A DNA stretch of 64,000 bases from Notolepis coatsorum (lineage: Eukaryota > Chordata > Actinopteri > Aulopiformes > Paralepididae). A program made the translations under genes and the position numbers. The stretch spans positions 156,816,377 through 156,880,376 of the forward strand of contig OZ020587.1 of assembly GCA_963971535.1 (NCBI GenBank), given 5' to 3'. The number at the start of each line of letters is the position of its first letter. Position 1 is the stretch's first letter. Below are positions 28,703 through 57,546 of this stretch, piece after piece. Under the pieces are notes generated by a model, which was given only the letters and a program-made list of their open reading frames with translations, was not told the origin of the DNA and ran no database searches.

Positions 28703-28812
28703 CGATGGCTAGACGTGAACCTGAACTGGAACCCAGATGATTATGGTGGAATCAAGAAGATCAGGATTCCATCCACTGACATCTGGAGACCCGACCTCGT
28801 CCTGTACAACAA
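28703..28812 (+). CDS. chrna1: chrna1 exon 4 (nicotinic acetylcholine receptor alpha-1 subunit)
   Basis: The 110-bp exon lies between acceptor CTCTCCAG and donor GTAAG. It begins in phase 0 with [19 protein letters not shown] and ends two bases into an Asn codon that the next exon completes. It encodes the extracellular domain stretch carrying binding loop [11 protein letters not shown] contains the conserved Trp86 and Tyr93 of the ACh site (Torpedo numbering). The subunit forms the muscle endplate cation channel with beta, delta and gamma/epsilon partners. The length and phases match exon 4 of vertebrate CHRNA1. No match to exons 1-3 was found upstream in this window. The last 32 exon bases begin a tandem array that repeats the exon edge and donor. 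Confidence 0.95.
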
Positions 28813-29346
28813 GTAAGCCTTCCATCTGGAGACCCCACCTCGTCCTGTACAACAAGTAAGCCTTTCCTCTGGAGACCCCACCTCGTCCTGTACAACAAGT
28901 AAGCCTTCCATCTCATCTGGAGACCCCACCTCGTCCTGTACAACAAGTAAGCCTTCCCTCTGGAGACCCCACCTCGTCCTGTACAACAAGTAAGCTTTCC
29001 ATCTGGAGACCCCACCTCATCCTGTACAACAAGTAAGCCTTCCATCTGGAGACCTGACCTCATCCTGTACAACAAGTAAGCCTTCCATCTGGAGACCCCA
29101 CCTCGTCCTGTACAACAAGTAAACCTTCCCTCTGGAGACCCCACCTCGTCCTGTACAACAAGTAAGCCTTCCATCTCATCTGGAGACCCCACCTCGTCCT
29201 GTACAACAAGTAAGCCTTCCCTCTGGAGACCCCACCTCGTCCTGTACAACAAGTAAGCCTTCCATCTGGAGACCCCACCTCGTCCTGTACAACAAGTAAG
29301 CCTTCCATCTGGAGACCCCACCTCGTCCTGTACAACAAGTAAGCCT
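28781..29346 (+). repeat. Tandem array of the exon 4 edge and 5' splice site, 13 units
   Basis: The unit is 43 bp: 32 bp of exon 4 (from ATCTGGAGACC to TACAACAA) plus GTAAGCCTTCC of the intron. Two units are 48 bp through an added CTCAT. GTAAG or GTAAA donors follow TACAACAA at 28813, 28856, 28899, 28947, 28990, 29033, 29076, 29119, 29162, 29210, 29253, 29296 and 29339. Most copies read GACCCCACC where the true exon has GACCCGACC. Reading past the first donor gives AAG TAA, so only the first donor is productive. Confidence 0.95.
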
Positions 29347-29608
29347 AAATATACCCATAAATATAGGCAAGAAATCATTTAAATCTGAATACATACTAAG
29401 AGTAAAGGTAAACAGTATACACAAGGTAGTGGTACCCTATCACATAGCTACTCATATCTCCAAAACTAGGCGAATCACATCAAAACAAATCTGGATGGAT
29501 AGATACCACTTTGGGTAAGACATTTTCTATTTAATAGAATTTTTTCATTTTTGGTCAATTGCCCCTTTTTAAAAATAACTTGAGTGTTGTGATGTTCTGG
29601 AATCACAG
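29347..29608. other. Intron 4 unique sequence
   Basis: About 260 bp without a recognised repeat, between two tandem arrays. Confidence 0.5.
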
Positions 29609-32142
29609 TTTCCTGTCCTCGCTGTGTCTGTGGAGGGTGTGTTTCCTGTCCTCACTGTGTCTGTGGAGGGTGTGTTTCCTGTCCTTGCTGTGTCTGTGGA
29701 GGGTGTGTTTCCTGTCCTCACTGTGTCTGTGTGGAGGGTGTGTTTCCTGTCCTCACTGTGTCTGTGGAGGGTGTGTTTCCTGTCCTCGCTGTGTCTGTGG
29801 AGGGTGTGTTTCCTGTCCTCGCTGTGTCTGTGGAGGGTGTATTTCCTGTCCTCGCTGTGGCTGTGGAGGGTGTGTTTCCTGTCCTCACTGTGTCTGTGGA
29901 GGGTGTGTTTCCTCACTGTGTCTGTGGAGGGTGTGTTTCCTGTCCTCACTGTGTCTGTGGAGGGTGTGTTTCCTGTCCTCACTGTGTCTGTGGAGGGTGT
30001 GTTTCCTGTCCTCACTGTGTCTGTGGAGGGTGTGTTTCCTGTCCTCGCTGTGTCTGTGGAGGGTGTGTTTCCTGTCCTCACTGTGTCTGTGGAGGGTGTG
30101 TTTCCTGTCCTCGCTGTGTCTGTGGAGGGTGTGTTTCCTGTCCTCACTGTGTCTGTGGAGGGTGTGTTTCCTGTCCTCGCTGTGTCTGTGGAGGGTGTGT
30201 TTCCTGTCCTCGCTGTGTCTGTGGAGGGTGTTTCCTGTCCTCGCTGTGTCTGTGGAGGGTGTGTTTCCTGTCCTCGCTGTGTCTGTGTGTTTCCTGTCCT
30301 CGCTGTGTCTTTGGAGGGTGTGTTTCCTGTCCTCGCTGTGTCTGTGTGTTTCCTGTCCTCGCTGTGTCTGTGTGGAGGGTGTGTTTCCTGTCCTCACTGT
30401 GTCTGTGTGGAGGGTGTGTTTCCTGTCCTCACTGTGTCTGTGGAGGGTGTGTTTCCTGTCCTCACTGTGTCTGTGGAGGGTGTGTTTCCTGTCCTCACTG
30501 TGTCTGTGGAGGGTGTGTTTCCTGTCCTCACTGTGTCTGTGAAGGGTGTGTTTCCTGTCCTCACTGTGTCTGTGTGGAGGGTGTGTTTCCTGTCCTCACT
30601 GTGGCAGTGGAGGGTGTGTTTCCTGTCCTCACTGTGTCTGTGGAGGGTGTGTTTCCTGTCCTCGCTGTGTCTGTGGAGGGTGTGTTTCCTGTCCTCACTG
30701 TGTCTCTGTGGAGGGTGTGTTTCCTGTCCTCGCTGTGTCTGTGGACGGTGTGTTTCCTGTCCTCACCTTGTCTGTGGAGGGTGTGTTTCCTCACTGTGTC
30801 TGTGGAGGGTGTGTTTCCTGTCCTCACTGTGTCTGTGGAGGGTGTGTTTCCTGTCCTCACTGTGTCTGTGGAGGGTGTGTTTCCTGTCCTTGCTGTGTCT
30901 GTGGAGGGTGTGTTTCCTGTCCTCGCTGTGTCTGTGGAGGGTGTGTTTCCTGTCCTCACTGTGTCTGTGGAGGGTGTGTTTCCTGTCCTCGCTGTGTCTG
31001 TGGAGGGTGTGTTTCCTGTCCTCGCTGTGTCTGTGGAGGGTGTGTTTCCTGTCCTCGCTGTGTCTGTGTGTTTCCTGTCCTCGCTGTGTCTGTGGAGGGT
31101 GTGTTTCCTGTCCTCGCTGTGTCTGTGTGTTTCCTGTCCTCGCTGTGTCTGTGGAGGGTGTGTTTCCTGTCCTCGCTGTGTCTGTGTGTTTCCTGTCCTC
31201 GCTGTGTCTGTGTGGAGGGTGTGTTTCCTGTCCTCACTGTGTCTGTGTGGAGGGTGTGTGTCCTGTCCTCACTGTGTCTGTGAAGGGTGTGTTTCCTGTC
31301 CTCACTGTGTCTGTGGAGGGTGTGTTTCCTGTCCTCACTGTGTCTGTGGAGGGTGTGTTTCCTGTCCTCACTGTGTCTGTGAAGGGTGTGTTTCCTGTCC
31401 TCACTGTGTCTGTGTGGAGGGTGTGTTTCCTGTCCTCACTGTGGCAGTGGAGGGTGTGTTTCCTGTCCTCACTGTGTCTGTGGAGGGTGTGTTTCCTGTC
31501 CTCGCTGTGTCTGTGGAGGGTGTGTTTCCTGTCCTCACTGTGTCTCTGTGGAGGGTGTGTTTCCTGTCCTCGCTGTGTCTGTGGACGGTGTGTTTCCTGT
31601 CCTCACTGTGTCTGTGGAGGGTGTGTTTCCTGTCCTCACTGTGGCAGTGGAGGGTGTGTTTCCTGTCCTCACTGTGTCTGTGGAGGGTGTGTTTCCTGTC
31701 CTCACCTTGTCTGTGGAGGGTGTGTTTCCTCACTGTGTCTGTGGAGGGTGTGTTTCCTGTCCTCACTGTGTCTGTGGAGGGTGTGTTTCCTCACTGTGTC
31801 TGTGGAGGGTGTGTTTCCTGTCCTCACTGTGTCTGTGGAGGGTGTGTTTCCTGTCCTCACTGTGTCTCTGTGGAGGGTGTGTTTCCTGTCCTCGCTGTGT
31901 CTGTGGACGGTGTGTTTCCTGTCCTCACCTTGTCTGTGGAGGGTGTGTTTCCTCACTGTGTCTGTGGAGGGTGTGTTTCCTGTCCTCACTGTGTCTGTGG
32001 AGGGTGTGTTTCCTGTCCTCACTGTGTCTGTGTGGAGGGTGTGTTTCCTGTCCTCACTGTGTCTGTGGAGGGTGTGTTTCCTGTCCTTGCTGTGTCTGTG
32101 GAGGGTGTGTTTCCTGTCCTCACTGTGTCTGTGGAGGGTGTG
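29609..32142. repeat. 33-bp minisatellite in intron 4, about 77 copies
   Basis: The unit contains CTGTGGAGGGTGTGTTTCCT then GTCCTCACTGTGT. Variants have TCGCT or TTGCT, and some lack 12 or gain 2 bases. A block is repeated at an offset of 840 bp (30541-30720 equals 31381-31560), so there is higher-order structure. Because 33 is a multiple of 3, several frames stay open for hundreds of codons. These are not genes. Confidence 0.95.
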
Positions 32143-32936
32143 AAAGCTCAGATTGCATCGGGCTAAATGTGGCCTCAGTATTCACAGGTTCCGTCGCGCC
32201 ATATGGCTGCGTCTGACACGCTGCTATTTCCCCCCGACAACCTGCTATACTCTGCCGCACTCTTAAAAACACAGCTGTTGAAACAGGACAGGAGGTTTGA
32301 CTGGAGCTTAGGGACCCTCAACATGCGAGAATAATCTTTTTGAACAACTTTGAGAGTGAATGGTGTCTTTTTTTTAGCTACAAAGAGCATCAGATTCCGC
32401 TTTTTAAAATGTACATACATTCAGAAAAACGTGAGATGCTTGTTTTCCCCGGCTCCTCAACCGTAGTATATTTGTAAACAACAATACACAACGATCTATA
32501 CAAACTATACAATACAAGGTATATGTTTTATTTTCTACAAGGTAAAAAACAGCAGATAAATAAAAAAAGAAATGATATTACAGTGTCAATAGCAGCAGTG
32601 TAATACGTGTGTGTGTGGTGTGTAAGTCACTTAAGGTGTTTTTGTGTGTATGCTCCTCTGATCATTTCATCATAATAATCTCTAGATGATCCAGGTGTTT
32701 CTTTAATTAACCTCCTGAACTGATTGCATTTGTCCTACATTAATTCCCCCCAAGGGGACCAATAAAGCAATATCTTATCTTATCTTACATGTGCACTTGC
32801 TGCATACAAATTAAGATAAGATATTCCTTTATTGATCCCCTTGGGGAAATTCAGGCATCATAGCAGCATGGGGGAGGGGGGAGGGGAGAGGGGGTACAGG
32901 TGGTAGAAGACATGATACAGGTCATACAATTATAGT
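32143..32936. other. Intron 4 sequence with two convergent LINE 3' ends
   Basis: 32143-32690 has no recognised feature. A LINE 3' terminus on the plus strand ends in AATAAAGCAATATC(TTATC)n at about 32787. A minus-strand one begins TAAGATAAGATATTCCTTTA at about 32813 and continues after the hAT insertion at 35122. Confidence 0.5.
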
Positions 32937-33081
32937 CAGGGCCGCCTGGGAGAAATGCGAGGCCCTGTGCGAGATTGAAACGCATCTAAGGTAAACATTT
33001 TTTTTTTTTTTTTTTATTCAGTCAACATATTCTTAAATAATAGCGCTGCCCGAGGCTGGGCATGATACAGTCAACATATAG

Positions 33082-33083
<2 letters not shown>

Positions 33084-33129
<46 letters not shown>

Positions 33130-33314
33130 CTCCCGTTCTACAGTCAATATACAGTGTTATCGCTTTGTAACACTGTACACATTTCTCCACAACACACATG
33201 TACAAGTGGCAGTAATGCAGAAAATCCAGCAAGGGAAGAAGCAGTGTAGAAAACAAAAAACAAAAAATTGCAATGAACTGACCGACACAATTGACAACTA
33301 TAAGCAATGCAATG

Positions 33315-33413
<99 letters not shown>

Positions 33414-33540
33414 TGTGATGATCCAGACAGAGAGAGTCTGTGGTCCAGAGAAAGAGAGATGGGTCTGTGGTCCAGACAGAGAGAGAGAGAGAGATGGGTC
33501 TGTGGTCCAGACAGAGAGAGAGAGATAAACAAGACAGCTA
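33084..33540. repeat. (AG)n microsatellites
   Basis: Long AG runs at 33084-33130 and 33318-33411, then GGTCTGTGGTCCAGACAGAG repeats to 33530. Arg-Glu and Ser-Leu reading frames over them are artefacts. Confidence 0.95.
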
Positions 33541-33774
33541 AGATGAGCCCCTAAAGGATATTCAACTTTTAATGGAAGAACAAAACAGAAGGAAAAGATA
33601 ACTTCAAAGGCAACATGAATATACATAGATCCAAAAGGACAAAGATCAACACTTCAATCCAAAGAGAAGAGGATCTATACCAGAGAAAACAAAGTAGCAA
33701 GGAGCCAACGGCCGACATCAGCTAAGGAGGCTAACTGCAAATAGAGTAGCCAGGTACTGACACCAGGTACACAC

Positions 33775-34305
33775 CGTTAGCTACGACAGCTAGCCGGCCC
33801 GTTTGGCTCAATATAACGTTAGCTACGTTAGCTAGCCGGCCCGCTTTGGCTCAATATAACGTTAGCTACGTTAGCTAGCCGGCCCGCTTTGGCTCAATAT
33901 AACGTTAGCTACGTTAGCTAGCCGGCCCGCTTTGGCTCAATATAACATTAGCTACGACAGCTAGCCGGCCCGCTTGGCTCAATATAACGTTAGCTACGTT
34001 AGCTAGCCGGCCCGCTTGGCTCATTATAACGTTAGCTAGCCGGCCCGCTTGGCTCAACATAACGTCTACGACAGCTAGCCGGCCCGCTAGCTCAACATAA
34101 CGTTGGCTACGATAGTTAGCCGGCCCGCTAGATCAACATAACATTAGCTACGATAGCTAGCCGGTCCGCTAGCTCAACATATGGTTAGCTACGATAGCTA
34201 GCCGGCCTGCTGGACCAACAGAACGTCAGCTACGATAGCTAGCCGGCCCGCTGGCTCCACATAACGTTAGCCAACATAACGTAGCCACGATAGCTAGCCG
34301 GCCCG
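33775..34305. repeat. 41-bp minisatellite rich in GTTAGCTA / TAGCCGGCCCGC
   Basis: About 13 degenerate copies carry TAACGTTAGCTACG and GCTAGCCGGCCCGCT. The unit contains overlapping short palindromes (GCTAGC, AACGTT, GCCGGC). Related AACGTTAGC fragments continue to about 34610. Confidence 0.85.
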
Positions 34306-34978
34306 AGAGGGAGAGAGAGAGAGATATCTCCATGGCGGGAATAGAATAGAGTGCATTAAAAACTCACCAAACATCCAAGAGGATGGAGACAACCGCGTGG
34401 AGTTGACGAAGTTCATCTGCCGAACGACCGTCCTCTTCATCTTGGCATAACAATGCTGCACGCGCTCTCTCTAGGTTAGCTAACGCTAGTTAGCCTTTAG
34501 CTAAGCTACTATCCGACATGGCTATCCCGACTGAACCACACGTTAGCACTCGATATTATAACGTAGCTAAAGCTAACTAGCTGTCCCTGCCTTTAGCTAA
34601 GCCGACATGGCTAGCTTGACTGAATTTTCTAACATGCAACAACTTTCATCTTCAGTCCATCTGCCGAACGACCATACTCTTCGTCTTGGCTGGCATAATA
34701 ATAACGCGCAAAATAGTCAGACGCAGCTGACGCACGCACGCCGGCCGACTGTACACATGTAACCCCTCCCTTCGTTGAAACCAATAGTATGTCTGCTGCA
34801 GAGCCCCAGAGCTCCAATAGTGTATCTGCAGTCTGCAGAGCCGCAGAGCCAGGAACAAGTCAGACACATTCTACAAACGTGTCTAATGTTAAATATATAA
34901 GCATATAAGCAAAACTAGATTTTAGGTCTGTGATGAAAAAGGGCCTCGCGGGAAGGGGGGCCTAGCAAAAAAAATAAA

Positions 34979-35012
<34 letters not shown>

Positions 35013-35121
35013 AAAAAAAAAAATCTTTTTTTTTCTTTTTTCTTTTGTGAGGCCACCCTTCCCGCGAGGCCCTGTGCGACCGCACTGCTCGCACACACCC
35101 TGAGGCGGCCCTGATTACAGT

Positions 35122-36081
35122 ACAGTGGAGAAGTAAACATTTAAATAGAATAAAAATAGGCAGTGTAAACAATATAATTTGTCAGGGTTGGGGGGGGGGG
35201 GGTGTAGGACACACATGCAGACACACACAAAAAGGGGAATATTAAAGTTACCCCAGAGGGGTGACCACTGGAAGCGATGAGAGAGGGGGTGGGAAAACAG
35301 AAGAATAAAATAAATAAAAACGGTATAGGAAACACAAAACACCAGTATAAAGTAACTGGGTAAAAATCCCAAAATAACCACCACTGCCTATAGCAGTTGA
35401 AGACAACAAGAAAAGAAAAAAAACAGCACTAGAGACAGAGTAAAACCCTAGAAGCATGAGCTTGGGACACTCTGAAAACCATGAAATGGACAACAAGCAT
35501 CCGAACACAGTCAACCAAACCTACTTAAAGGCAATCAAGCCCACACACCTGCCATGCCGCGTGGCAATTAACTGCAGAGGCCAGTGATTGACAGCTGTCC
35601 ATCACAGAAAGACGAAATAGACAGCTGTCCCTCACAGAAAGACTGAAATAGACAGCTGTCCCTCACAGAAAGACGAAATAGACAGCTGTCCCTCACAGAA
35701 AGACGAAATAGACAGCTGTCCCTCACAGAAAGATGAAATAAAGCCAAAGCACCTTAGAATAAACAAAAATAAAACCCACATAACCGTGATACATCACAAT
35801 AATTTACTCTGAGTATGCGCATATGGGCAAGTAGGTAGTGTAAATATAGGTCAAGGTGCAGATGAGGGTATGTTTGAATTGAGAGCAAATTAGGTCCAAA
35901 AAACCTTTACCAAAAAGAAAAAATCTCTGTTTCACGAGACCACAATGTTGTGAATTATAATACTTAAACTACAGTTTTCACTCTACCAATTGTCTTTGTT
36001 AGGGACCCTTCTTGTTTACATGGCTCTGGTAGGGCCATGTCCCCAGCGTCCCTATATAAAACGATGCCTCCTCTGGACAGG
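35122..36081. other. Intron 4: LINE UTR remnant and unique sequence
   Basis: 35122-35300 continues the LINE 3' region split by the hAT element (G run at 35191-35202). 35589-35740 is a 30-bp minisatellite, five copies of GACAGCTGTCCCTCACAGAA plus AGACGAAATA. The rest is unassigned. Confidence 0.6.
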
Positions 36082-36194
<113 letters not shown>

Positions 36195-37920: not shown

Positions 37921-38116
37921 TGCTGACGGGGACTTCGCCATTGTCCACGAGACCAAGGTGCTGCTGGAGCACACCGGGATGATCACCTGGAACCCCCCTG
38001 CCATCTTCAAGAGCTACTGCGAGATCATTGTGCTCCACTTCCCCTTCGACCTGCAGAACTGCAGCATGAAGATCGGCACCTGGACCTACGACGGCAACCT
38101 GGTGGTCGTCAACCCA
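37921..38116 (+). CDS. chrna1: chrna1 exon 5
   Basis: The 196-bp exon lies between acceptor CACCACAG and donor GTAATG. Its first T completes the Asn codon from exon 4, then [17 protein letters not shown] follows. It carries the complete Cys loop, [15 protein letters not shown], with 13 residues between the two cysteines and the conserved N-C-S glycosylation site. It also carries binding loop B, GTWTYDG, whose Trp is the cation-pi partner of ACh. It ends in phase 0 at VVVNP, and exon 6 continues [11 protein letters not shown] 43-bp minisatellite starts exactly at the donor. Confidence 0.96.
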
Positions 38117-38276
38117 GTAATGACATCATCATACTCTGCCTGTGATCTGCATCATATGTACTGTAATGACATCATACTCTGCCTGTGATCTGCATCATAT
38201 GTACTGTAATGACATCATACTCTGCCTGTGATCTGCATCATATGTACTGTAATGACATCATACTCTGCCTGTGATC
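38117..38276 (+). repeat. 43-bp minisatellite beginning at the exon 5 donor (first block)
   Basis: The units start GTAATGACATCATACTCTGC and contain GATCTGCATCATATGTACT. The first begins at the real splice donor (38117) and has one extra CAT. About four units precede the Rex1 insertion; two more follow at 39922-40020. Confidence 0.9.
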
Positions 38277-39921
38277 AAGTCAAGTCAAGAGTTTTATTTT
38301 TCACGGCATACAAGTATACAATGAAATGCGGGTGGTCTTGCCCGCAACGATGTGCAATACAGTAGTACAACATATAATAGAATCCAATAAAATAACATTG
38401 TGCAATAAACAGGTAACATAGTGGGACATCTCGGTATTTGTACATAGTTATTTACAGAGCATGGAGGACTAGGTCCTTTGGTAGTGCAATACACTGTTAC
38501 TGTTTCTATACTATTTTTAAAGTGACCTTTCCTTTGTGGCCATAAGTGTGGGCGTGTGCAGCATGAGTGTGTGCTTGCTCATGTTAAAGTGGCTGCTAGT
38601 GTGCGAGCGTGTACAGCGTGCGTGTCGTGTGTGTGCTCATGTGTGCTTGTGTGTGGAGAGTTCAGTGTTCTGTGGCACTCAGTGTTCAGTGTTCAAGTCT
38701 CTGATGGCCTGGGGGAAGAAGCTGAGCCGAAGCCTCTCTGTCCTATAGTAGCTGGGGTTCGCAGGCATCTGCCTGAGCTCAGCAGCTGGAACAGGCTGTT
38801 ATTGGGGTGGTGAGGGTCTTTCATTATTCTGCAGGCTCTGGATTTGCACCTCTTGTTGTATAGAACCTCTCTGTAGGGCCTTCTTGTCCTGTGCCGTGCT
38901 GTTTCCATACCAGGCAGTGATGTTTCCAGTCAAGATGCTCTCTACAGCTCCGGAGTAGAAGTACTGGAGTATCTTCCCCGATACTCTGAACTTCCTTAAC
39001 TGTCTCAGGTGGTAGAGGCGCTGCTTTGCCTTTTTTACAACTGTGTCTATGTGTGTTGACCATGTCAGATCCTCTGAGATGTGGACCCCCAGGTACTTAA
39101 AGCTGCTCACCCTGTCCACGGTAGCCCCGTTTATCCTCAGTGGTGTGTGTGTCTCCTGCTGTCCTCTCCTATAATCCACGATCAGCTCCTTGGTTTTACC
39201 AATGTTCAGGAGCAGGCTGTTGTCCTGGCACCAGCGTTCCAGTACCTCAACCTCCTCCCGGTAGGCCTTCTCGTCGTTGTCCGAGATCAGCCCCACCACC
39301 ACCGTGTCGTCTGCAAACTTCACTATGGAGTTGGAGCTGAACTTGGCCACACAATCGTGTGTGTAGAGTGAGTACAGCAGGGGGCTCAGAACACAGCCCT
39401 GGGGGGACCCGATGCTCAGGGTGATGGTGTTGGAGGTCTGACCCCCCACCCTGACCGCCTGGGGTCTTTCACTCAGAAAGTCCAGTACCCAGGCGCTCAG
39501 AGCGGAGCTCAGACCCAGCTCGATCAACTTGTCCACCAGTCTGGTGGGGACTATGGTGTTGAACGCTGAGCTGTAGTCAATGAACAACAGTCTCACATAG
39601 CCCCCCTTCTGGCGGTCAAGGTGAGAGAGGGTGCTGTGCAGTACCTGGGAGACCGCGTTGTCAGTGGACCTGTTTGTCCTGTATGCAAATTGCATAGGGT
39701 CCATATCACTGGGGAGGGAGGCACAAATGTGATCCTTGACCAGCCTCTCGAAACATTTCATGACCACAGAGGTGAGTGCCACCGGTCTGTAGTCATTGAG
39801 ACATGTTGGGGAGGGTTTCTTCGGTACAGGGATGATGGTAGACATCTTGAAGCAGGCAGGGACCACTGACTCCGCCAGGGATTGATTAAATATGGCGGTG
39901 AACACAGGGGCTAACTGGTTG
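38277..39921 (-). mobile_element. 5'-truncated Rex1-type LINE inserted in the minisatellite
   Basis: The inverted 3' end starts at about 38277 (AAGTCAAGAGTTTTATTTTTC on the plus strand). The coding end is at 38799-39921. Minisatellite sequence stands on both sides (38117-38276 and 39922-40020), so the insertion happened after repeat expansion. The target duplication is unclear. Confidence 0.85.
38799..39921 (-). pseudogene. Rex1-type reverse transcriptase fragment
   Basis: About 375 residues of RT lack the endonuclease: [66 protein letters not shown] and the catalytic [11 protein letters not shown]. The C-terminal [20 protein letters not shown] block is typical of fish Rex1. The first residues at 39922-39947 are minisatellite. 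The last part (after [12 protein letters not shown]) is probably frameshifted. The palm is intact but truncation makes the copy inactive. Confidence 0.88.
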
Positions 39922-40113
39922 GCACATATGTACTGTAATGACATCATACTCTGCCTGTGATCTGCATCATATGTACTGTAATAACATCATACTCTGCCTG
40001 TGATCTGCATCATATGTACATACTGTATATACATAATAGTAAACGGTGATTGTGCACATTTCCTGGCGAATTAGATTAGATTACTGTAAATGTTATTGTC
40101 ATTATACAACACA
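39922..40113 (+). repeat. 43-bp minisatellite (second block) and spacer
   Basis: ATATGTACTGTAATGACATC resumes the array interrupted by Rex1 and runs to about 40020. It is followed by a LINE-like TTAGATTAGATTACTGTAAA remnant. Confidence 0.8.
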
Positions 40114-41680
<1,567 letters not shown>

Positions 41681-42530: not shown

Positions 42531-44404
42531 GTATTTTATTTTTTTATTATTTTTTAAACACACATATAAACAAACATGACAACACACGATAAGATAGACA
42601 AGCATTAATACACAGTGTATATCCAACGAAATTACCATTTATACCAATGTCTTATACAGGATATACCCCTAATACCTGTTATCTAAAAACCTACACACAT
42701 ATGCTCCAGCTCGAACCCCCCCCCTCCCGGACCCCTCTTTGTATAGTACCTCCATTATCCCTCGCTCCTAACCAGACACTACCATTATAAGCTAGCTTTT
42801 ATTCTCTCCACCACTTCTAACCACATTGTCATTTTGGATTCATTGAGACCCAGAATTCTTGCTGTAGATATTTCTTGATAAATCACATCGAGATATGTAA
42901 GAAACCAAACTTGCCGGCACATTTTTTCCGGTTGAAACCAGCGTGATGCGATCAGCTTTTTAGCTACTGTGATACCCGATAAAACCAATCTCTTTAGCTG
43001 TGGATGTACTGCAAACTCAAAAACATCATTCAATAGTAATACAGAGGGGTGTACAGGTATATTCCAAGATAAGAGTTTTGATAATTGTTGGTTCACATCT
43101 TTCCAGAATATCTTAACTGGTGGGCAGTACCAGTACATGTGCATAAATGTCCCTTCATCCCCATTTGTACATTGGGAGCATTTGGAGTCTTGTTTAAGAC
43201 CCATTCAGTTCAGTCTTATAGGAGTCAAGTATGTCCTGTGAATATAGTTAAGATTGATTTGTTGATGGTCCGGGTTCCTTGATGTAAGTCGGACATTTGC
43301 CCAGGCCCCTTGCCAATCAAAGTCACTTTCCAGGTCTGGTATATCCCTCCTCCAGACAGAGTCTAGTTGGAGGGTTTCATACGAGGACGTTAGTAATTGA
43401 TGATAAAAATCTGAAACAAAACCTCTCGATGTCTCTCTTTCATAGAAGAATTTGTGGTATCTGTGGTGTTCAATTGGTATGTCTAATGGAACACCGTGAG
43501 ACTTCAAACATAGCCGTAACTGTATGTAAAAAAGCCATGTGGACTTGGTGAGATTAAATTTTTTGCATATTTCTCCATAACTACAAAAACCCTGTTTGTT
43601 AAAAACATCCCCTAATGAGTGTATGCCTTGCTCTTCCCATATAGGGAATCTTATATGTCGTTTTTCAATTAAGAGTGCATTGTTATTGAATAAGGGAGTA
43701 TGATTGTGCCATTTATGTGGGTTAGGATATTTTTTTTGTGTTTCACGCCATATCCGGATAGCATGAGTAATTATGGGGCCAAATTTCCGTTCACAATGCT
43801 TGATTGGTAGTTTAGTGTATGCTATGTCCTTCAGTCTATGTGGGGCTACTATGTTTTCTTCTAATTTTCTCCAGGATACTAATGCTTGGGGATCAAACCA
43901 TGTTGTCAATGGTCTTAATGTGTACGCCTTAAAATAGTGGAAAAAATCTGGAAATGCCATGCCACCGTCTGCTTTATTTCTCTGTGCGGTGGATCTTTTT
44001 ATACGTGGTGGTTTGTTATTCCAAATAAATTTGTATGTGGAGGAGTGTAATCTTTTCCAGTAACCCTCTGGAGGGGGTAACAGTAGCATTGAACTGAAGA
44101 AGTTGATTCTAGGTAGTACGTCCATCTTAACTATTGAGTACTGTACTGAGTTTTTAAGTTTTGCCCACCTATCAAGGTCGTCTTTGATTTTGTTTTGTAT
44201 TTTTGTGTAATTGTGCTTCACCGTTTGTCTTATGGTGGGGAATATTTCCACTCCCAAGCATCTAAAATGTTTTACCATAGGTATCTCTCCTGGGAGGGTT
44301 ATATCTTTTTTTGCAGGGGTGTTAAGTGGAAGGAAAGCCGACTTCGGCCAATTTATCTTGAATCCCGATAAATCACCAAAGTTCTCAATCAACTTGATCA
44401 TCTT
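42531..44404 (-). mobile_element. 5'-truncated L1-type LINE inserted in a TTC tract
   Basis: The minus-strand 3' end is A-rich (TTTATTTTTTTATTATTTTT on the plus strand near 42535). The 5' truncation point is near 44404 where TTC-rich sequence resumes. Its coding part is given separately. Confidence 0.8.
42785..44404 (-). pseudogene. L1-type ORF2 C-terminal half, one in-frame stop
   Basis: The frame starts after the RT catalytic core, at [17 protein letters not shown], and continues through W-K-R-L-H-S and FIWNNKPPRIKR. It ends in the Cys-rich C-terminal motif CSQCTNGDEGTFMHMYWYC. A TGA at 43205-43207 lies between RLN and MGLKQ in the same frame. About 545 residues are homologous in total. 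It belongs to a different L1 lineage from the one at 801-20134. Confidence 0.85.
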
Positions 44405-44572
44405 CTTTTTCGTCTCCTTTTTCATATTCTATTTCTTCTTCTCCTTCTTCTTCTTCTTCTCCTCCCTCCTCCTCCTCCTCCCTCCCCCTCTGCCTCCTCC
44501 TCCTCCTCCTCCCCCCCCCCTCTCCCCCCTCCTCCTCCTCCTCCTCCCGCCCCCCCCTCCCCCTCCTCTCAG
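44405..44572 (+). promoter_or_regulatory. Extended polypyrimidine tract and acceptor of chrna1 exon 6
   Basis: Almost pure C/T runs from about 44430 to CTCTCAG at 44566-44572, about 140 bp, where 15-20 bp would be usual. Confidence 0.8.
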
Positions 44573-45429
<857 letters not shown>

Positions 45430-45519: not shown

Positions 45520-46645
45520 CCAGCTCACTCGAAATAGAGCTGCCAGACTCACTCTGCTCTATAATGAATAGTGTGGAGGGAATGCATGCTAGACTGTCGT
45601 GGATGAGGGTGGACCAGAGACTAGCATGCAGTTTGATTCGGTTTTTAAAGAACATTTGTACCTTAGGTAAACCCACTCAATTGTATTCTATGCTTTTATC
45701 CACCAATGATAGACATGACCATAATACCAGACATGCTTCAAGTAGTCGCTTCACCCTACCTCTGCCTAGAACCAACGGTCTAAAGAAAACTGCAATGTAT
45801 AGAGCCATAACATATTAGAATAGGATCCCATTACATATCATACGGACGGAAAACAAGGACCGTTTCAAAAAGAAACTTAAAGGAGCCACAATCCGGAAGG
45901 AAATCAATATATGTCATGCATGAGTGTAGCTGCAGCCATGTTATCCAAACTTCTTCTGTTTACTTTGTGCTTTTTTTTTTAAAGGTATGGTGAAATGGAT
46001 TTATTTTCTTTTGTTTTCTTTTTTCTTTTTTTCTCCTTTTTCCGTTTTTTCTCCCATCCCAATGTTAGTCGTTATGCCAATTCCCAATCCCCTTCCTGGT
46101 CGTTGCGCGCTTACCCCCTACCGTCGGTCTGGGAGGGCGAAGACTATCACATGCTTCCTCCGACACACATGTGCAGCCAATCAACCGCTTCTTTTCACCT
46201 GGCAGCGCGGACTCTCACTGGGAGAGTGTAACGTGTGGAAGGTCACACTACATCTCCCAGATCCTTCCCTCGCTGTGCAGGCGCCCCGACCGAACTGTAG
46301 GAGTCGCTGTTTACAACGACCAGGACCCACCCTCACCGGCTTCCCACCCGCTGACTCTGCCAATTGTGTCAGTATGGAGGACGACCGACAAGCCGGAGGC
46401 ACCGCTGGCAGTTGGATTAGATCCCACTGTCTCTGCGGTGGTAGACAGACGCTTAGTCCGCTGTGCTACCTGGCTGCCTTTTGTTTAATTTTCTATTGAT
46501 TATGTATGTGCTATATGACTGATTTACACTGAATGTTTGATATTTGTATGTGTATATCTGTGAGGAGGACCCCAGGCAGAATAGTCAACACGTTGATGAT
46601 GACTAATGGGGATCCTAATAAACATAAACATAAACACTGTTGTGA
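45520..46645 (+). mobile_element. L2-like LINE 3' part, split by a SINE
   Basis: It carries the RT C-terminus (MHARLSWMRVDQRLACSLI, then the HNTRHASSS motif). The frame has TAG at 45816-45818 where related elements have Trp, then resumes NRIPLHIIRTENKDRFKKK to a stop near 45921. The 3' UTR ends in GGGGATCCTAATAAACATAA and (ACATAA)n, matching the inverted copy at 21226-21770. A SINE (about 46000-46486) interrupts the UTR. Confidence 0.8.
46000..46486 (-). mobile_element. tRNA-derived SINE in the LINE UTR
   Basis: The minus-strand head GGCAGCCAGGTAGCACAGCG (A-box) is at 46467-46486 and a B-box-like GGGATCTAATCC at about 46413-46424. Internal blocks CAGCGACTCCTAC, GGGCGCCTGC and GGTGAAAAGA are shared with 48292-48769. 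The tail is T-rich on the plus strand (46000-46050). The target duplication is not clear. Confidence 0.75.
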
Positions 46646-46751
46646 CTGTGTGCCCCCCCCTCCCCCCCAGGTGAGAAGATGACACTCTCCATCTCTGTCC
46701 TGCTGTCTCTCACTGTGCCCCCCCCCCCCCCTTCTCCTCCTCCCCCCCCAG
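46646..46751 (+). repeat. Duplicated exon 7 acceptor and first 46 exon bases, 81 bp upstream
   Basis: A C-rich tract and CAG are followed at 46671 by GTGAGAAGATGACACTCTCC through CTCACTGT, the same as the first 46 bases of exon 7 with one base changed (ACACTC for ACTCTC). A new C-rich tract then leads to the main acceptor at 46750-46751. The offset is 81 bp, a multiple of 3, and no stop lies between. The upstream acceptor would add 27 residues: a second [16 protein letters not shown] plus a proline-rich linker. Confidence 0.92.
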
Positions 46752-46975
46752 GTGAGAAGATGACTCTCTCCATCTCTGTCCTGCTGTCTCTCACTGTCTT
46801 CCTGCTGGTCATCGTGGAGCTGATCCCGTCCACCTCCAGCGCCGTGCCCCTCATCGGGAAGTACATGCTCTTCACCATGGTCTTCGTCATAGCCTCCATC
46901 ATCATCACCGTCATCGTCATCAACACCCATCACCGCTCCCCCAGCACCCACACCATGCCCAACTGGGTGCGCAAG
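46752..46975 (+). CDS. chrna1: chrna1 exon 7
   Basis: The 224-bp exon has acceptor CCCCCCAG and donor GTGAGC; it enters in phase 1 and leaves in phase 0. It encodes the pore-lining M2 helix ([20 protein letters not shown] then VELIP). The Glu before M2 (EKM) and the Glu at its outer end (VEL) are the intermediate and outer charge rings. M3 follows ([20 protein letters not shown]), then the start of the cytoplasmic loop ([19 protein letters not shown]). This exon gives the channel its cation selectivity and gate. Its 5' part is duplicated just upstream. Confidence 0.97.
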
Positions 46976-50625: not shown

Positions 50626-50634
50626 AAAGTCCAG

Positions 50635-50763
50635 AGGACAGCGTGCCCCCTGCTGGACAACAACACCACAATTCCGACAACGGCCTTGACCGGGGCTCGA
50701 ACCGATGATCTTTCGATCATGAGTCCGGAGCTCTACTCATGTTATCCCCCCTCCCCCCTCCAG
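50635..50763 (+). other. tRNA-like remnant and exon 8 acceptor region
   Basis: On the minus strand 50687-50740 resembles the 3' half of a tRNA (GGTTCGAGCCCC T-loop). The anticodon stem does not pair and there is no 5' half, so it is a repeat fragment rather than a tRNA gene. The tract CCCCCCTCCCCCCTCCAG at 50746-50763 is the exon 8 acceptor. Confidence 0.55.
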
Positions 50764-51003
50764 GTCTTCATCGAGACCATTCCCAACATCATGTTCTTCT
50801 CCACCATGAAGCGGCCCTCCAAGGACAAGCAGGAGAAGAGCATCTACGGGGCGGACTTCGACATCTCCGACATCTCGGGGAAGCCCACGCCCACCGCCGT
50901 GCACTACCAGTCGCCCATCACCAAGAACCCGGACGTGCGCAGCGCCATCGAGGGGGTCAAGTACATCGCAGAGACCATGAAGTCGGACGAGGAGTCGAAC
51001 AAC
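50764..51003 (+). CDS. chrna1: chrna1 exon 8
   Basis: The 240-bp exon (80 codons, phase 0 at both ends) runs from acceptor CCCTCCAG to donor GTAAGG. It encodes the M3-M4 cytoplasmic loop: [28 protein letters not shown], then the amphipathic MA helix [19 protein letters not shown] that lines the inner vestibule. Loops of this sequence are specific to alpha-1 among nicotinic subunits. It fits with exons 7 and 9. Confidence 0.96.
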
Positions 51004-51079
51004 GTAAGGCTTCTCGGCGTAGAGGGGGGGTGCGACAGGGCTGTGGTTCCTCATTGCTCTCATATGGGGGGGGGGTGAG

Positions 51080-51545
51080 AGAGAGACAGTGGCTCGGGAG
51101 GTAGAGCGGTCATCCGGTAATCCGGAGGGTTTCAGGTTCGATACCCGCTCCTCCCGGGCAGCGTGTCTGAGTGTCCTTGAGCAAGACACTTAACCCCTAA
51201 CTGCTCCCGATGAGCAGTTCGGCACCTTGCATGGTCATCTCCGCCGTCGGTGTGTGAATGTGTGAGTGAATGGGGGGGGGGGGGGGGGCAACAGTGGTTC
51301 AGGAGGTAGAGGGGTCGTCTGGTAATCCGGAGGGTTCCAGGTTCGATTCCCGCTCCTCCCGGGCAGCGTGTCTGAGTGTCCTTGAGCAAGATACTTAACC
51401 CTTAACTGCTCCCGATGAGCAGGTTGGCACCTTGCATGGTCGCCTCTGCTGTCGGTATGTGAATGTGTGAGTGAAAAATGTGGGTAACAAATTGTAAAGC
51501 GCTTTGGATAAAAATCTGCTATATAAAGGCAGCCATTTACCATTT
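51080..51545 (+). mobile_element. Two tandem tRNA-derived SINE copies
   Basis: Each copy has an A-box (GTGGCTCGGGAGGTAGAGCG / GTGGTTCAGGAGGTAGAGGG) and a B-box (GGTTCGATACC / GGTTCGATTCC). Both then have CGTGTCTGAGTGTCCTTGAG. The first copy (51085-51268) stops at a G run (51272-51288). The second (51289-51545) has the full tail AAAGCGCTTTGGATAAAA then CTATATAAAGGCAGCCATTT. A different SINE family from 48292-48769. Confidence 0.82.
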
Positions 51546-51716
51546 ATGTCACTGTTGACAAAAATGACCATTTCTCAACATATCTCAAAACATAATGTTG
51601 ATTGCTCTTGGATTCCGCTTGAGTAACTGTGGTGTTACTGTTCAACACAACACGTGGTAAAGAAGATACATTATATCAATAATGTAACATGTTGATATAG
51701 TTGATCAGTCTCGCTT
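51546..51716. other. Intron 8 unique sequence
   Basis: Nothing recognised. Confidence 0.5.
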
Positions 51717-52022
51717 AACCCTTTCACTACTACACTATCAAAGGGTTAACCCTTTCACTGCGACAATACAGAAGGGTAACCCTTTCACTATCACACTACC
51801 AAAGGGTTATCCCTTTCACTGCGACAATACAGAAGGGTAACCCTTTCACTACCACACTACCAACGGGTTAACCCTTTCACAACCACACTACAGAAGGTTA
51901 ACCCTTTCACTACCACACTACAGACGGTTAACCTTTCACTAGCACACTACAGAAGGTTAACCCTTTCACTGCGACAATACAGAAGGTTAACCCTTTCACT
52001 ACCACACTACAGACGGTTAACC
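51717..52022. repeat. 30-bp minisatellite GGTTAACCCTTTCACTACCA plus CACTACAGAC
   Basis: About ten copies with small changes. Related units are at 26281-26420. Confidence 0.9.
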
Positions 52023-52424
52023 GTTATAGTTGATCAGTCTTGCTTAAAATATGTAAATAAAGGACAGCAGGACAGAGATGCTCAGAGTCATCTTCTATAA
52101 TGTGTGTAGATTATAGATTCTATAATAATATCTATACCCAATAGTATCTATAAAATATCTATAAAATATGTATTGTTTATCGTCAGCATGGATTATGCCA
52201 CTGGGGGGGGGGGGGGGGGGCGCTGCAGCCCGTTCTCACTTCAAATATGTAAATAAAGTACTAATCGACCACAGGAAAAAGGTACATATTGTATGTTATG
52301 TTATAGCCGTACGTAATATATTGACGTATTTACAAATAAGTACATATATTACATATTCAAACATTTTAAACTTTTAACGTTTAAATTCCCCTGCTGGAGA
52401 ACAAACCCAGGAGGCAAGTGCCCT
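52023..52424. other. Intron 8 spacer with G run
   Basis: A direct repeat TAGTTGATCAGTCT(C/T)GCTTAA flanks the minisatellite (about 51697 and 52027). A G run lies at 52204-52220. No gene. Confidence 0.55.
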
Positions 52425-52505
52425 TACCTTAACTTAACCTTAACTCTGTTACCTTAAACTAACCATAACCTTAACTCTGTTACCTTAAACTAACCATAAC
52501 CTTAA

Positions 52506-53431
52506 CACTTTGATCGCCGGGGTTAAATTTATAATTTACCATCCCTCGGGAGATGTTCCCCTTCTTTGCAGGGCTATACCTTTTTAAATTGTATTGCTAA
52601 ATTGACATTACTATGGCCCATTCAACGTCCTATATCTATTGTTCAGGGTGTAGCAACGTTATACTTTTTCATTCACATATTCATACTAAAATACGGTCTA
52701 AAGTATGTTTTTATCGTTTTCTGCAGCTTTCTTCAGAACGTGATTTATAGCCCTAAATGCATTATATTGATGATTGTATACAGTTTGATAGCAATCGGCG
52801 CGAGATAAAACATTTCAAATGGACGTGCTTCTAGAAGTTACTACTTATCATCTGATGTCGACCGGATGGGCGGTGGGTCGTTTATAATTCCGTGGGCAAC
52901 GTTATATCATTCATCTAGTGTGGGTGATATGATCATTAGAGCAGTTAGTAAAGAACACGTTGAAAAATAACGCTGGATCTTACCGTATCTTCCTCGTGCC
53001 GTTGGGAGATGAGCGTGGAACAGAAATGTTTCTATTATGGGATGTAGAAAGATCCGATCCATTTCCAGGTTGTATAATAGTATATACGTCCAAATCATGT
53101 TGTTTATCGAGTTATTGGTAACGGATTGCTATCTGTTGTGATCAGCTCGAGTCCTGGGACTATTAGCGAGTGATCGGACCGAATTGAAATGAGCACCAGC
53201 TTCCACTTCCTGTTTCTGTCCTGGGCGATCCGCCGATCGGCCACCAGATGGCGCTCTTGAACCGTTGGAGAGTTGAGAGGGGCTCACCAGTACATATAAT
53301 GTCTCTGGGGGAGAAATATGATTTCGATCACAGATTTTTGAAATATTGATATCAAAGACGCTGTCCAGCGTCTTCGGCAGAATAAGCATGGCGGGGAAAG
53401 ACGCTGAACAGCGTCTTCGGTGATTAAAGTG
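52506..53431. mobile_element. piggyBac-like MITE, 926 bp
   Basis: TTAA flanks at 52502-52505 and 53432-53435. Ends CACTTTGATCGCCG and CGGTGATTAAAGTG are inverted repeats matching 12 of 14. Near the right end, two short palindromes GACGCTGTCCAGCGTC and GACGCTGAACAGCGTC (about 53349 and 53400) repeat. There is no transposase frame. Confidence 0.8.
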
Positions 53432-53943
53432 TTAACTTAACCTTAACTCTGTTACCTTCAATTAACCATAACCTTAACTCTGTTACCTTAAATTAACCAT
53501 AACCTTAACTCTGTTACCTTAAACTAACCATAACCTTAACTTAACCTTAACTCTGTTACCTTAAACTAACCATAACCCTAACTTAACCTTAACTCTGTTA
53601 CCTTAAACTAACCCTAACCTTAACTCTGTTACCTTAAACTAACCATAACCTTAACTTAACCTTAACTCTGTTACCTTAAACTAACCCTAACCTTAACTCT
53701 GTTACCTTAAACTAACCATGACCTTAACTTAACCTTAACGCTGTTACCTTAAACTAACCCTAACCTTAACTTAACCTTAACTCTGTTACCTTAAACTAAC
53801 CATAACCTTAACTTAACCTTAACTCTGTTAGCTTAAACTAACCATAACCTTAACTTAACTTTAACTCTGTTACCTTAAACTAACCCTAACCTTAACTTAA
53901 CCTTAACTCTGTTACCTTAAACTAACCATAACCTTAACTTAAC

Positions 53944-55128
53944 TGGGTCCGCTCCTCTTTCTCCTGTATATAAATTACCTGAAAGCAGCTTGCTCATGTG
54001 ACCTTTTTTTATACGAAGATGACTCCGCCCTACTAGTGTCTCACAAAGACAAACAAGTGGTTGAGCAGACATTGAGTGCAGAACTAGAGAAGGTTAGCGA
54101 CTGGCTAGGCCACAACAAGCTGTGCCTCCACGTGGGGAAGACTGAGTCCATTTTATTCGGGTCAAAGGTCAGGCTCAGAAAATCGCCAGGTTTTAACATT
54201 AGAATAGGAGATACTGTTCTCACAGACAAAACATCTGTGAAATATCTCGGTTGCGTCCTGGAAAACAGCTTATCAGGGGAAAGCATGGCTCACCAAGCAC
54301 TTACAAAGATAAATAACAGGACTAGATACCTAGCCAGAATCTCTCATTTTTTAGATCAGTCAGCGATGAAGATTCTTGCTGGAGCTCTCATACAGTGTCA
54401 CTATGACTATGCGTGTGGCTCCTGGTACAACAGTGCCCCCAAAAGTCAGAAAATAAAACTACAGACATCACAAAACAAGCTAATCAGGGTAATACTAAGG
54501 CTACCTGCCCGAACCCACCTTGACCCATCTCACTTTGAGATCATGAGATGGCTTAAGGTGGAAGACAGAGTAAACCAGATAGGGATGTGCCTAGTTCACA
54601 GAATAGTGCACGGGGTAGTGCCAGTGTACTTTAACAACTACTTCAACCGAATCAGAGACACCCACGCATACCAAACTAGGCGCAGCTCAACTGACTTTGT
54701 GCCAGTCAGATTCAGGAGCTGTATGGGGAAGGAGTCCTTTCTGTATTCAGCAGCTGTCTATTGGAATAGTCTGCCCAGTGAACTGAAAATCATAGACAAT
54801 GCCGTTAGATTCAGGTCCAGCCTGAAGACATGGCTCAAAAGGGACTATACTTGACCTAGACACTTAGCTTAAGGCACCCTTGCATGTTGTATGAGTCTGT
54901 ATGTATATAAATGTTAAATGGTATATGTGATGTGTTGTGATGTCACGTTTTGTATGATGCATGTTTTAAGCATCACACTCCCCCACCCCCCTACAAGGAC
55001 CACAATGGAAATAAGCTCTGAGCTTTTTTGTATTCATCCTTGGCAGTATATCCCGACTGTGCTCTTCTGTCACATGTTTATTTTTTATATTGTCAAATAA
55101 AGTCATTCATTCATTCATTCATTCATTC
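53944..55128 (+). mobile_element. 5'-truncated L2-like LINE
   Basis: Flanked by AACTTAAC at 53936-53943 and 55129-55136. Coding from 53945 to 54854 is followed by a 3' UTR ending in (ATTC)n at 55103-55128. Same family as the insertion at 9430-10585. Confidence 0.88.
53945..54854 (+). CDS. Reverse transcriptase C-terminal half of an L2-like LINE
   Basis: The frame opens inside the RT palm at GPLLFLLYINYL and includes LYEDDSALLVS. The catalytic motif is therefore YEDD, where YADD is expected, a change likely to impair activity. The thumb and C-terminus are intact: LAGALIQCHYDYACGSWY, KLQTSQNKLIRVILRL, YQTRRSSTDFVPVRF and the end AVYWNSLPSELKIIDNAVRF. There is no internal stop for about 300 residues, suggesting a fairly recent insertion. 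The palm N-terminus and endonuclease are absent. Confidence 0.85.
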
Positions 55129-55335
55129 AACTTAACCTTAACTCTGTTACCTTAAACTAACCCTAACCTTAACTTAACCTTAACTATGTTACCTTAAACT
55201 AACCATAACCTTAACTTAACCTTAACTCTGTTACCTTAAACTAACCATAACCTTAACTTAACCTTAACTCTGTTACCTTAAACTAACCCTAACCTTAACT
55301 TAACCTTAACTCTGTTAAACTAACCCTAACCTTAA

Positions 55336-55904
55336 CCAGAACCCACAATCATTGATGGTTCGACTCCCTGTGTCGCTGTTTGTTTTGGACCTTTGCCCAT
55401 AGGAAATGTAAATATATGACTTATACAATAAGTAAATATTACATAATGGCTATAACATAACAACTATTATGTATATTTTTTTCTGTTGTTGATAATACTT
55501 TTTTTTAGTATTGACATTTTCTGATAAGACCATGTCGTTGAGTTGACATGTTGCTATGCGACGACAGCGAGTGCCCTGTGTACAGTACAGTACAGTACAG
55601 TACTGTCAGCGTCAGTGGTCGTGGCCAGGCAGCCAGAGAAGGAACAATAATGTGTTTGTTTGGACACATTCCCTGCTGTGAGCTGAATAAGGATTGCTAT
55701 TATTAAAGTGGCAGTTCACCCGAAAAATAACAAAAAGAAACATTATTGTCCTTCTTATCCGGAGTACTATTATCCATCCAGATGGTTTTAGGGGGATTCA
55801 CCTACTTTTGGAGATAACTGCCGTAGAGATATCTGCTGAATGGCACTCTGCTTGTGGTGCTCAAAGCACCAACAAAATACAGGAATATATTATCTTATGA
55901 TGTT
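55336..55904. other. Intron 8 unique sequence
   Basis: No gene. A short (CAGTA)n run at 55581-55604 is the only repeat seen. Confidence 0.5.
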
Positions 55905-57417
55905 TCTCTCTCCCTCCTATCTCCCTCCTCTCTCTCTTCTCTCCCTCCTATCTCTCTCCTCTCTCCCTCCTCTCTCTCTCCTCTCTCCCTCCTCTCTCTC
56001 TTCTCTCCCTCATCTCTCTCTCCTCTCTCCCTCCTCTCTTCCTCCTCCCTCTCCTCTCTCCCTCCTCTTCCTCTCTCCCTCCTATCTCCCTCCTCTCTCT
56101 CTTCTCTCCCTCCTCTCTCTCCTCTCTCCCTCCTCTCTCCCTCCTCTCTCTCCTCTCTCCCTCCTCTCTCTCCTCTCTCCCTCCTATCTCCCTCCTCTCT
56201 CTCTTCTCTCCCTCCTCTCTCTCTCCTCTCTCCCTCCTCTCTCCCTCCTCTCCCTCCTCTCTCCCTCCTATCTCCTTCCCCTCTCCCTCCTATCTCCCTC
56301 CTCTCTCCCTCTCCCTCCTATCTGCCCTCCTCTCCCCTCTCTCTCCTACCTCCTCTCCCATCTACCCCCCTCCCTCCCCCCTCCTCTCTCCCCTCTCCCT
56401 CCTCCCCCCCTCTCTCCCTCCTCTCTCTCCCCTCTCCCTCCTCCCCCCTCTCTCCCTCCTCCCTCCTCTCCCCTCCCTCTTCCCTCATCTCTCCCTCCTC
56501 TCCATCCCCCCTCCCTCCTCCCTCCCTCCCTCCTCCCTCCTCTTCTCTCTCTCCCTCCTCTCTCTCCCTCCTCCCTCCTCTCTCCTTCCTCTCTCTCTCT
56601 CCCTCCTCTCTCTCTCCCTCTTCTCCCCCTCCTCTCTATCTCTCCTCTCTCCCCCTCTCCCTCTCTTCTCCCCCTCCTCTCTCTCATCTCTCTCATCTCT
56701 CTCCTCTCTCTCTTCTCTCCCTCTTCTCCCTCCTCTCTCCCTCCTTTCTCTCTCCTATCTCCCTCCTCTCTCTCTTCTCTCCCTCCTCTCTCTCTCCTCT
56801 ATCCCTCCTCTCCCTCCTCTCCCTCCTCTCTCCCTCTCCCTCCTCTCTCCCTCCTCTCTCTCTCCTCTCTCCCTCCTATCTCCCTCCTCTCTCCTTCCTC
56901 TCTCCCTCCTCTCTCCTCTCTCCCTCCTCTCTCTCCTCTCTCTCTCATCTCTCTCCTCTCTCCCTCCTCTCTCCTCTCTCTCCTCTCCCTCCTTTCTCTC
57001 CTCTCTCTCCCCCTCCTCTCCCCTCTCCCTCCTCTCTCTCTCCTCCCTCCTCTCTCTCCCCTGCTCCCTCCTCTCCCTTTCTTCCCACTCCCTCCTCCCT
57101 CCTCTCTGCCCTCCTCTCTGACCTCCTCTCCTCTCTCCCTCCTCCCTCCTATCCCCTCTCCCTCCTCCCTTCCCCCTCCTCTCTCCCTCCTCCCTCCTCT
57201 ACCCTCTACCCTCCTCCCTCCCCCCTCCTCTCTCCCCTCTCCCTCCTCGTTCTCCTCTCTCTCTCTCTCCTCTCTCTCTCTCCCTCCTCTCTCCCCCCTC
57301 TCTCTCCCTCCTCTCTCCCCTCTCTCTTTCCCCTCTACCTCCTCCCTCCTCTCCCCCCTCCTCTTTCTCTTCTCTCCCTCCTCTCTCTCTCTCCCTCCTC
57401 TCTCTCTCTCCCTCCAG
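55905..57417 (+). repeat. 1.5-kb polypyrimidine tract (CTCCCTCCTCT-type) ending at the exon 9 acceptor
   Basis: Practically only C and T on the plus strand, with TCTCTCCCTCCTCTC units and rare A or G. It ends in CTCTCCCTCCAG, the acceptor of the last chrna1 exon. The long Ser/Pro/Leu and Glu/Arg/Gly reading frames over it are artefacts. Confidence 0.95.
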
Positions 57418-57546
57418 GCTGCAGAGGAGTGGAAGTTCGTGGCCATGGTGTTGGATCACATCCTGCTGTGTGTGTTCATGGCGGTGTGTCTGATCGGCAC
57501 GTTGGGGGTGTTTGCAGGCCGTCTCATCGAGCTCAGCATGCTCTAG
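57418..57546 (+). CDS. chrna1: chrna1 exon 9 (last coding exon)
   Basis: It has 129 bp including TAG at 57544-57546. It starts in phase 0 with [18 protein letters not shown], then [20 protein letters not shown] and the extracellular tail S-M-L. It encodes M4, the lipid-facing helix. The acceptor is CCCTCCAG at the end of the pyrimidine tract. The C-terminus ends three residues after LIEL, in line with alpha-1 of other vertebrates. With this exon the receptor is complete from loop A to the stop. Confidence 0.97.

Follow-up and report, generated by a model that had tools for sequence, protein, structure and literature searches.

Tandem repeats that lie across exon-intron boundaries have been reported before. 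In human genes within segmental duplications, repeat units found by Tandem Repeats Finder (TRF) span the exon-intron boundary and can alter splice patterns (PMC2812944). Intron gain by tandem duplication has been proposed in the Rogers model, and a duplication in a potato RdRp gene crosses an intron-exon boundary (PMC4974935). Intron 1 of sea bream MSTN-2 carries a variable 150-bp block at its start (PMC3045353). Here we describe a window of 64,000 nucleotides (C8:156816377-156880376) from the 3.42-Gb assembly of the fish Notolepis coatsorum. It holds exons 4 to 9 of chrna1, the gene for the alpha subunit of the muscle acetylcholine receptor (AChR), and tandem arrays sit at several of its splice junctions. 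An earlier note on this DNA knew of no described system of this kind, which is too strong in view of the published boundary repeats (PMC2812944, PMC4974935). The arrays are, in our view, probably a by-product of a high birth rate of minisatellites, in which duplications that cross a junction are nearly neutral since exon definition uses the exon-proximal site.

The six exons join as a single open frame of 378 codons with AG/GT borders. They are exon 4 (28703..28812, 110 bp), assigned from its borders, open frame, and alignment to AChR alpha chains; exon 5 (37921..38116, 196 bp); exon 6 (44573..44810, 238 bp); exon 7, counted from the downstream of two acceptors and called 7B (46752..46975, 224 bp); exon 8 (50764..51003, 240 bp), neither border of which has a TRF array within 50 bp; and exon 9 with the stop codon (57418..57546). 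These exons and the arrays and tracts described below lie on the plus strand. When exons 4 to 7 are joined at the array-bearing junctions, the product aligns without gaps to AChR alpha chains of PDB structures, and the intron positions are probably the usual vertebrate ones. Introns 4 to 8 measure 9108, 6456, 1941, 3788, and 6414 bp, all above the limit of about 250 nt for exon definition. The surplus array copies fall inside these introns, and no new intron is evident in the gene. A tblastn search of the window with the N terminus of the alpha subunit gave no exons 1 to 3; good matches were confined to exon 4 and the copies in its array.

Every array named in the earlier note is present in chrna1, as judged by TRF, sequence inspection, and self-comparison. 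At exon 4, a 43-bp unit that contains the exon tail and the donor is repeated from 28780 to 29346, giving 13 donors spaced 43 or 48 bp apart (at 28813, 28856, 28899, 28947, 28990, 29033, 29076, 29119, 29162, 29210, 29253, 29296, and 29339). This array contains two 263-bp blocks that are mismatched at 6 of 263 positions. The Asp codon GAC of the exon-4 copy is CAC in 11 of the 12 intronic copies (codons were read by eye, here and at exon 6). The Asp codon of the exon is also present in unit 7, the first of the second 263-bp block, which indicates that the later block duplication took in the copy belonging to the exon itself. At exon 6, a 92-bp unit of exon tail and donor (44740..45429) supplies seven donors (44811, 44903, 44995, 45087, 45179, 45271, and 45363) and a partial copy. 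There are two positions at which exon 6 differs from all six full intronic copies, both changes being synonymous, and intronic array units differ from the exon copy at one to four positions each.

The remaining junctions are arranged differently. The 43-bp array of exon 5 (38117..38276) has its first copy starting at the donor GT at 38117, with the TRF call starting at 38127, and it resumes at 39925-40019 beyond an interrupting block (38277..39924) that is probably a retroelement, judging by a reverse-transcriptase-like minus-strand reading recognised by eye. The donor of exon 5 agrees with the consensus at just 5 of 9 positions. At exon 7, an 81-bp duplication of the acceptor and exon head, uncalled by TRF and found by self-comparison, places an upstream copy, 7A, at 46671..46751, and there are two acceptors, separated by 81 bp, with exon starts at 46671 and 46752. 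Exon 6 is preceded by a pyrimidine tract of about 140 bp (44430..44572). With the acceptor's own AG excluded, the first A upstream of exon 6 is found at -142 and the first AG at -193. Before exon 9 there is a CT-rich tract of 1.5 kb (55906..57415) that is 97.9% pyrimidine; with the acceptor's own AG again excluded, 1537 nt are free of AG (55881-57417, about 97% pyrimidine), and the nearest A is at -81. Ordinary A branch points, if used for these two exons, must be distant, perhaps unusually so for exon 9. In the 3′ untranslated region, a 21-bp repeat of four copies (57565..57651) lies after the stop codon, as the earlier note had it, although its start is about 19 bp past the stop and not 25. 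The unit sequences of the junction arrays are unrelated to one another, and they are thus independent events, as had been proposed.

Assemblies are known to go wrong at tandem repeats (PMC6868369), and copy numbers could in principle have been inflated, or whole arrays invented, by the assembler. We regard this as very improbable here: the copies carry point differences and are ordered in higher-order blocks, one array is interrupted by a 1.65-kb insertion, and the pattern recurs at independent loci.

The position of the surplus sites has clear consequences for the reading frame. Use of any downstream donor leads to a premature stop (12 of 12 at exon 4, 5 of 5 at exon 5, and 6 of 6 at exon 6). 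Only the first donor keeps the frame and the six-exon frame is intact, so the exon-proximal site must be used enough. Splicing of exon 7 at the downstream acceptor would yield the normal protein, and use of the upstream acceptor would add an in-frame, Pro-rich insertion of 27 residues, presumably interrupting the pore helix M2. One might ask whether such sites adjust splicing and receptor level, acting as decoy or poison donors or as a dual acceptor. The stops and the in-frame insertion would suit that role, and so would the donor 9-mers, which are identical in 12 of the 13 exon-4 donors and all seven exon-6 donors. The arrays, however, are near-uniform throughout, with one to four differences per intronic unit, so that identity of the donors is not special, and the presumed interruption of M2 by the Pro-rich insert also counts against this reading. 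A regulatory function thus seems hardly credible.

We infer instead that local tandem duplications arise at many sites in the genome, and that those lying wholly within an exon would alter the protein and be removed. After a duplication that crosses a junction, the exon body would stay joined to one intact splice site, the extra copies becoming intron. The introns on the sides seen are 1.9-9 kb long, so the exons would be recognised as units by exon definition, and the site nearest across the exon would then be used. For exons 4 and 6 this would be the first donor, and for exon 7 the last acceptor. The arrays might then expand by block duplication like any intronic minisatellite.

This choice of site has a published parallel: where two identical strong donors lay 52 nt from each other in minigenes whose flanking introns were 365 nt, shorter than those of chrna1, splicing used the upstream one exclusively (PMC9225289). 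The same work also yields points that count against the explanation we favour. With weakened donors, larger exons were skipped, and for duplicated acceptors of the exon-definition class, the preference for the upstream site was lowered, a reversal not being shown (PMC9225289). The minigene rule, moreover, concerns strong donors, and that of chrna1 exon 5 has the poor consensus match given above. As the published acceptor preference is the weaker one, a minor exon 7 isoform from the upstream acceptor is possible.

A different kind of tolerance would arise if chrna1 on C8 were a spare copy. Another chrna1-like gene lies on contig C23 of this genome (locus L016, G000:C23:94508842-94509084); its exon 7 is nearly identical to that on C8 (92.9% over 224 bp), and the C8 copy could accordingly be free to accept disordered junctions, perhaps while decaying into a pseudogene. 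In an essential gene, the twelve surplus donors of exon 4 would be a danger. Exons 4 to 9 are nonetheless intact and in frame. The C23 gene also has an array, of 35 bp × 44, starting about 6 bp past the exon 7 donor, and other receptor genes likewise have arrays, so the pattern is not special to one spare copy. Relaxed constraint therefore appears improbable. In the C23 gene, an upstream 479-bp segment recurs 888 bp on with 98.7% identity. One pattern scan of the genome contigs for a relative of chrna1 matched seven stretches, none of which encodes one.

How far the junctions of chrna1 exceed chance depends on what is counted. TRF arrays cover 36.4% of the window, 37.2% of chrna1, and 9.1% of its exon bases. 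At this coverage, 2 of the 11 junctions fall within an array (4.1 expected), 4 are no more than 10 bp from one (4.3 expected), and 5 no more than 25 bp (4.6 expected). When the exon 7 duplication is added, these counts become 3, 5, and 6 of 11 against the same expectations, the last with P = 0.30. By coverage, then, the junctions of chrna1 are not unusually repeat-rich. Counting where arrays began gives a result that weighs the other way. Among 16 minisatellite-type seeds, compiled by hand from the TRF calls, leaving aside a 17-bp row at 46004, and from the exon 7 duplication, three cross a junction, compared to 0.29 by random placement (nominal P = 0.0025). With the TRF-called arrays only, the count is 2 of 15 against 0.27 expected (P = 0.027). 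Target sizes of 28.8, 18, 12, 8, and 5 kb, the smaller of which model the old intron before its inflation by insertions and repeats, gave P values of 0.004, 0.015, 0.043, 0.11, and 0.28, respectively. A self-scan of positions 28000-58000 for duplications missed by TRF, with low-complexity matches excluded, yielded just two, the exon 7 duplication and one short pair, so detection bias is not the cause of the excess. The origin test is post hoc, chrna1 having been chosen because of the pattern itself, and array origins are perhaps enriched at its junctions. The other side of this count is that 11 of the 16 minisatellites, unmentioned in the earlier note, lie away from junctions, including the longest, a 33-bp × 78 array within intron 4 (29608..32142).

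Junctions elsewhere in the genome allow a broader comparison. Family searches found 142 exon matches for the transmembrane regions of Cys-loop receptors and 103 for cytochromes P450, and our sample comprises 114 exon matches, 94 from Cys-loop receptors (chrna1 itself excluded) and 20 from P450. TRF arrays make up 15.4% of 70 receptor-exon loci, one of which is this chrna1. Gene names and splice sites of the numbered loci were read from the sequence by eye. Exon tail and donor are repeated together in a nicotinic receptor exon (L019, 40 bp × 3), in L061 (about 58-67 bp, about seven copies), in L080 (60 bp × 4.7, the match terminating at a stop in the intron), and in a P450 gene (L105, 32 bp × 5.7). 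An acceptor is repeated with the exon head in a GABA-receptor-like gene (L048, three copies) and with 16 exon bases in L085 (71 bp × 8.8). L052 is a partial crossing case, and L006, with a 15-bp repeat at the match edge, was left out of the crossing count. L061 and L080 are related receptor genes that have different donor arrays at what seems to be the same exon border (the exon ending ...ALG or ...PLG).

Such arrays are thus found in other genes, and in this weak sense the suggestion of a lineage-wide tendency stands; the frequency of crossing arrays is not significantly above background. Of the 114 exon matches, 5 are crossed by arrays, compared with 3.1 of 108 for pseudo-exons of the same length placed in the flanks (P = 0.20). 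With a looser depth limit, the numbers are 7 of 114 and 5.2 of 108 (P = 0.23), and an earlier version of the test gave 4 and 3.2 (P = 0.42). Among 141 splice sites called by a rough score, 3 are crossed (3.02 expected) and 1 is abutted (1.46 expected).

Several observations nevertheless weigh against a purely background origin. The rough caller found just 55 donors and 86 acceptors in the 114 matches, and it missed the crossing cases L019, L061, and L080, which were confirmed by eye. Arrays abutting the edges of exon matches number seven, compared to 1.95 expected, with none of 200 replicates as high; two of the seven are weaker (in L069 the acceptor is about 40 bp farther in, and in L020 the array is about 25 bp past the called donor), and two others, L054 and L066, were counted uninspected. 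Array ends at -8 to +16 bp, for units of at least 15 bp, number 7 against 2.7 (P = 0.02), and those at -30 to +16 bp number 10 against 5.2 (P = 0.04). For shorter units, which include the pyrimidine tracts of acceptors, the figures at -8 to +16 bp are 10 against 3.3 (P = 0.002). The density of exon-facing array ends is also about two times higher in the first 100 bp from exon-match edges than beyond. Comparison of boundaries with random positions in this sample therefore divides, with no significant excess of crossing and an excess of abutting arrays and of array ends.

The earlier note had suggested a process acting at exon-intron junctions, such as slippage promoted by transcription or R-loops. 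Such a process, which might also involve nicking, would favour the birth of duplications there. In its support are the three junction-crossing origins in chrna1, the abutting arrays, the array ends crowded near exons, and the starts of arrays within about 10 bp of the donor at exon 5 and at L006, L016, and L028 (the donors of L006 and L028 were placed by eye). The sampled boundaries, however, show no significant excess of crossing over either pseudo-exons or called sites, and most chrna1 minisatellites are elsewhere in the gene. The sense-strand G-C skew of the six junction repeats (-0.40, -0.19, -0.39, -0.58, -0.94, and -0.99) has the wrong sign for R-loops, which makes that suggestion unlikely. 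Positive skew was found only in the 3′ untranslated repeat (+0.39) and the 33-bp array of intron 4 among the eight repeats measured. An origin by R-loops was accordingly rejected: it calls for a G-rich non-template strand, and skew at the junction repeats runs from -0.19 to -0.99.

A strong junction-targeted process is unsupported by these data, and there may be a modest near-exon excess. A dedicated process at junctions is in our judgment unlikely. That duplications in this lineage are born about two to three times oftener at exon edges than elsewhere, at or just across splice sites, as a real mutational bias, is rather doubtful too. Should the near-exon excess hold across the genome, a mutational bias at junctions would be indicated, and such a bias would mean slow multiplication of splice sites across thousands of genes.

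The window has other repeats and open frames outside the junctions. A 167-bp satellite at 5395-16738 forms two large, oppositely oriented arrays of about 24 and 35 copies, with 1885-nt arms that are 97-98% complementary. Similar inverted sequence flanks both arrays (readings at 5224-5313 on the minus strand and 16739-16912 on the plus strand), and the whole is a large palindrome, perhaps a foldback-type element. A GATG tetranucleotide array of 1.2 kb at 40114-41336 has about 306 copies with 99% matches. Long open frames are located at 1836-4910 (minus), 23664-25556 (minus), 43208-44428 (minus), 53943-54851 (plus), and 60154-62025 (plus). No other gene that could supply control junctions was seen among the longest open frames outside chrna1, which were read by eye as encoding proteins like those of non-long-terminal-repeat retroelements.

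The features of chrna1 can be set beside several described systems. Like the human repeats in segmental duplications (PMC2812944), the units at exons 4, 6, and 7 span the exon-intron boundary; the human ones are variable among recent paralogs, half of them lying in coding exons, whereas the surplus copies in chrna1 hold whole donors or acceptors, up to 13 copies, in long introns. In the single paralog that we compared, the gene on C23, no acceptor duplication was seen in the 200 bp upstream of exon 7, and the array there is its own, on the donor side. The potato RdRp duplication and that of exon 7 are alike in that polypyrimidine tract, acceptor, and exon start were copied (PMC4974935), but the copies in chrna1 lengthen existing introns, unlike the Rogers model, and give no new intron in the coding sequence. 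The block in sea bream MSTN-2 is present there in at most two copies, compared to the arrays of chrna1, and the text at hand does not state whether its unit includes a donor or exon tail (PMC3045353).

With the minigenes (PMC9225289), chrna1 shares identical donors about 50 nt apart and flanking introns of >250 nt, though it has 13 and 7 natural donors, known from sequence alone, in place of two. The exon 7 acceptor, CAG|GTGAGA, resembles a donor and lies within a tandem duplication, as do the dual-specific splice sites of tandem repeat genes (PMC10809524), from which it differs in that its donor likeness is read from the DNA. Exons 6 and 9, with nearest candidate A at -142 and -81, recall a class of human exons that have AG exclusion zones and whose branch points are distant (PMC1431707), but the 1537-nt zone before exon 9 sets it apart from the human class. 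Codfish genomes are likewise dense in tandem repeats in and around genes; the codfish papers, in the parts at hand, stress short units, and this window is also rich in longer ones, in an assembly of 3.42 Gb compared to a 613-Mb estimate for cod (PMC5241972, PMC5894186).

Among the literature matches listed, as judged by title or the start of the abstract, none describes multi-copy splice-site arrays in a fish genome or a junction-centred expansion. Our results suggest that junction-crossing duplications can be tolerated, and these would be raw material for intron growth and gain. A genome with an array across one edge of about 4-6% of 114 exon matches is also a natural test bed for splice-site competition, the plainest case being exon 4, with 13 near-identical donors in a row, 12 of which would wreck the message. 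Compared with the systems described before, what is new is the scale: up to 13 donors, at several junctions of one gene, and in about 4-6% of the sampled exon matches.

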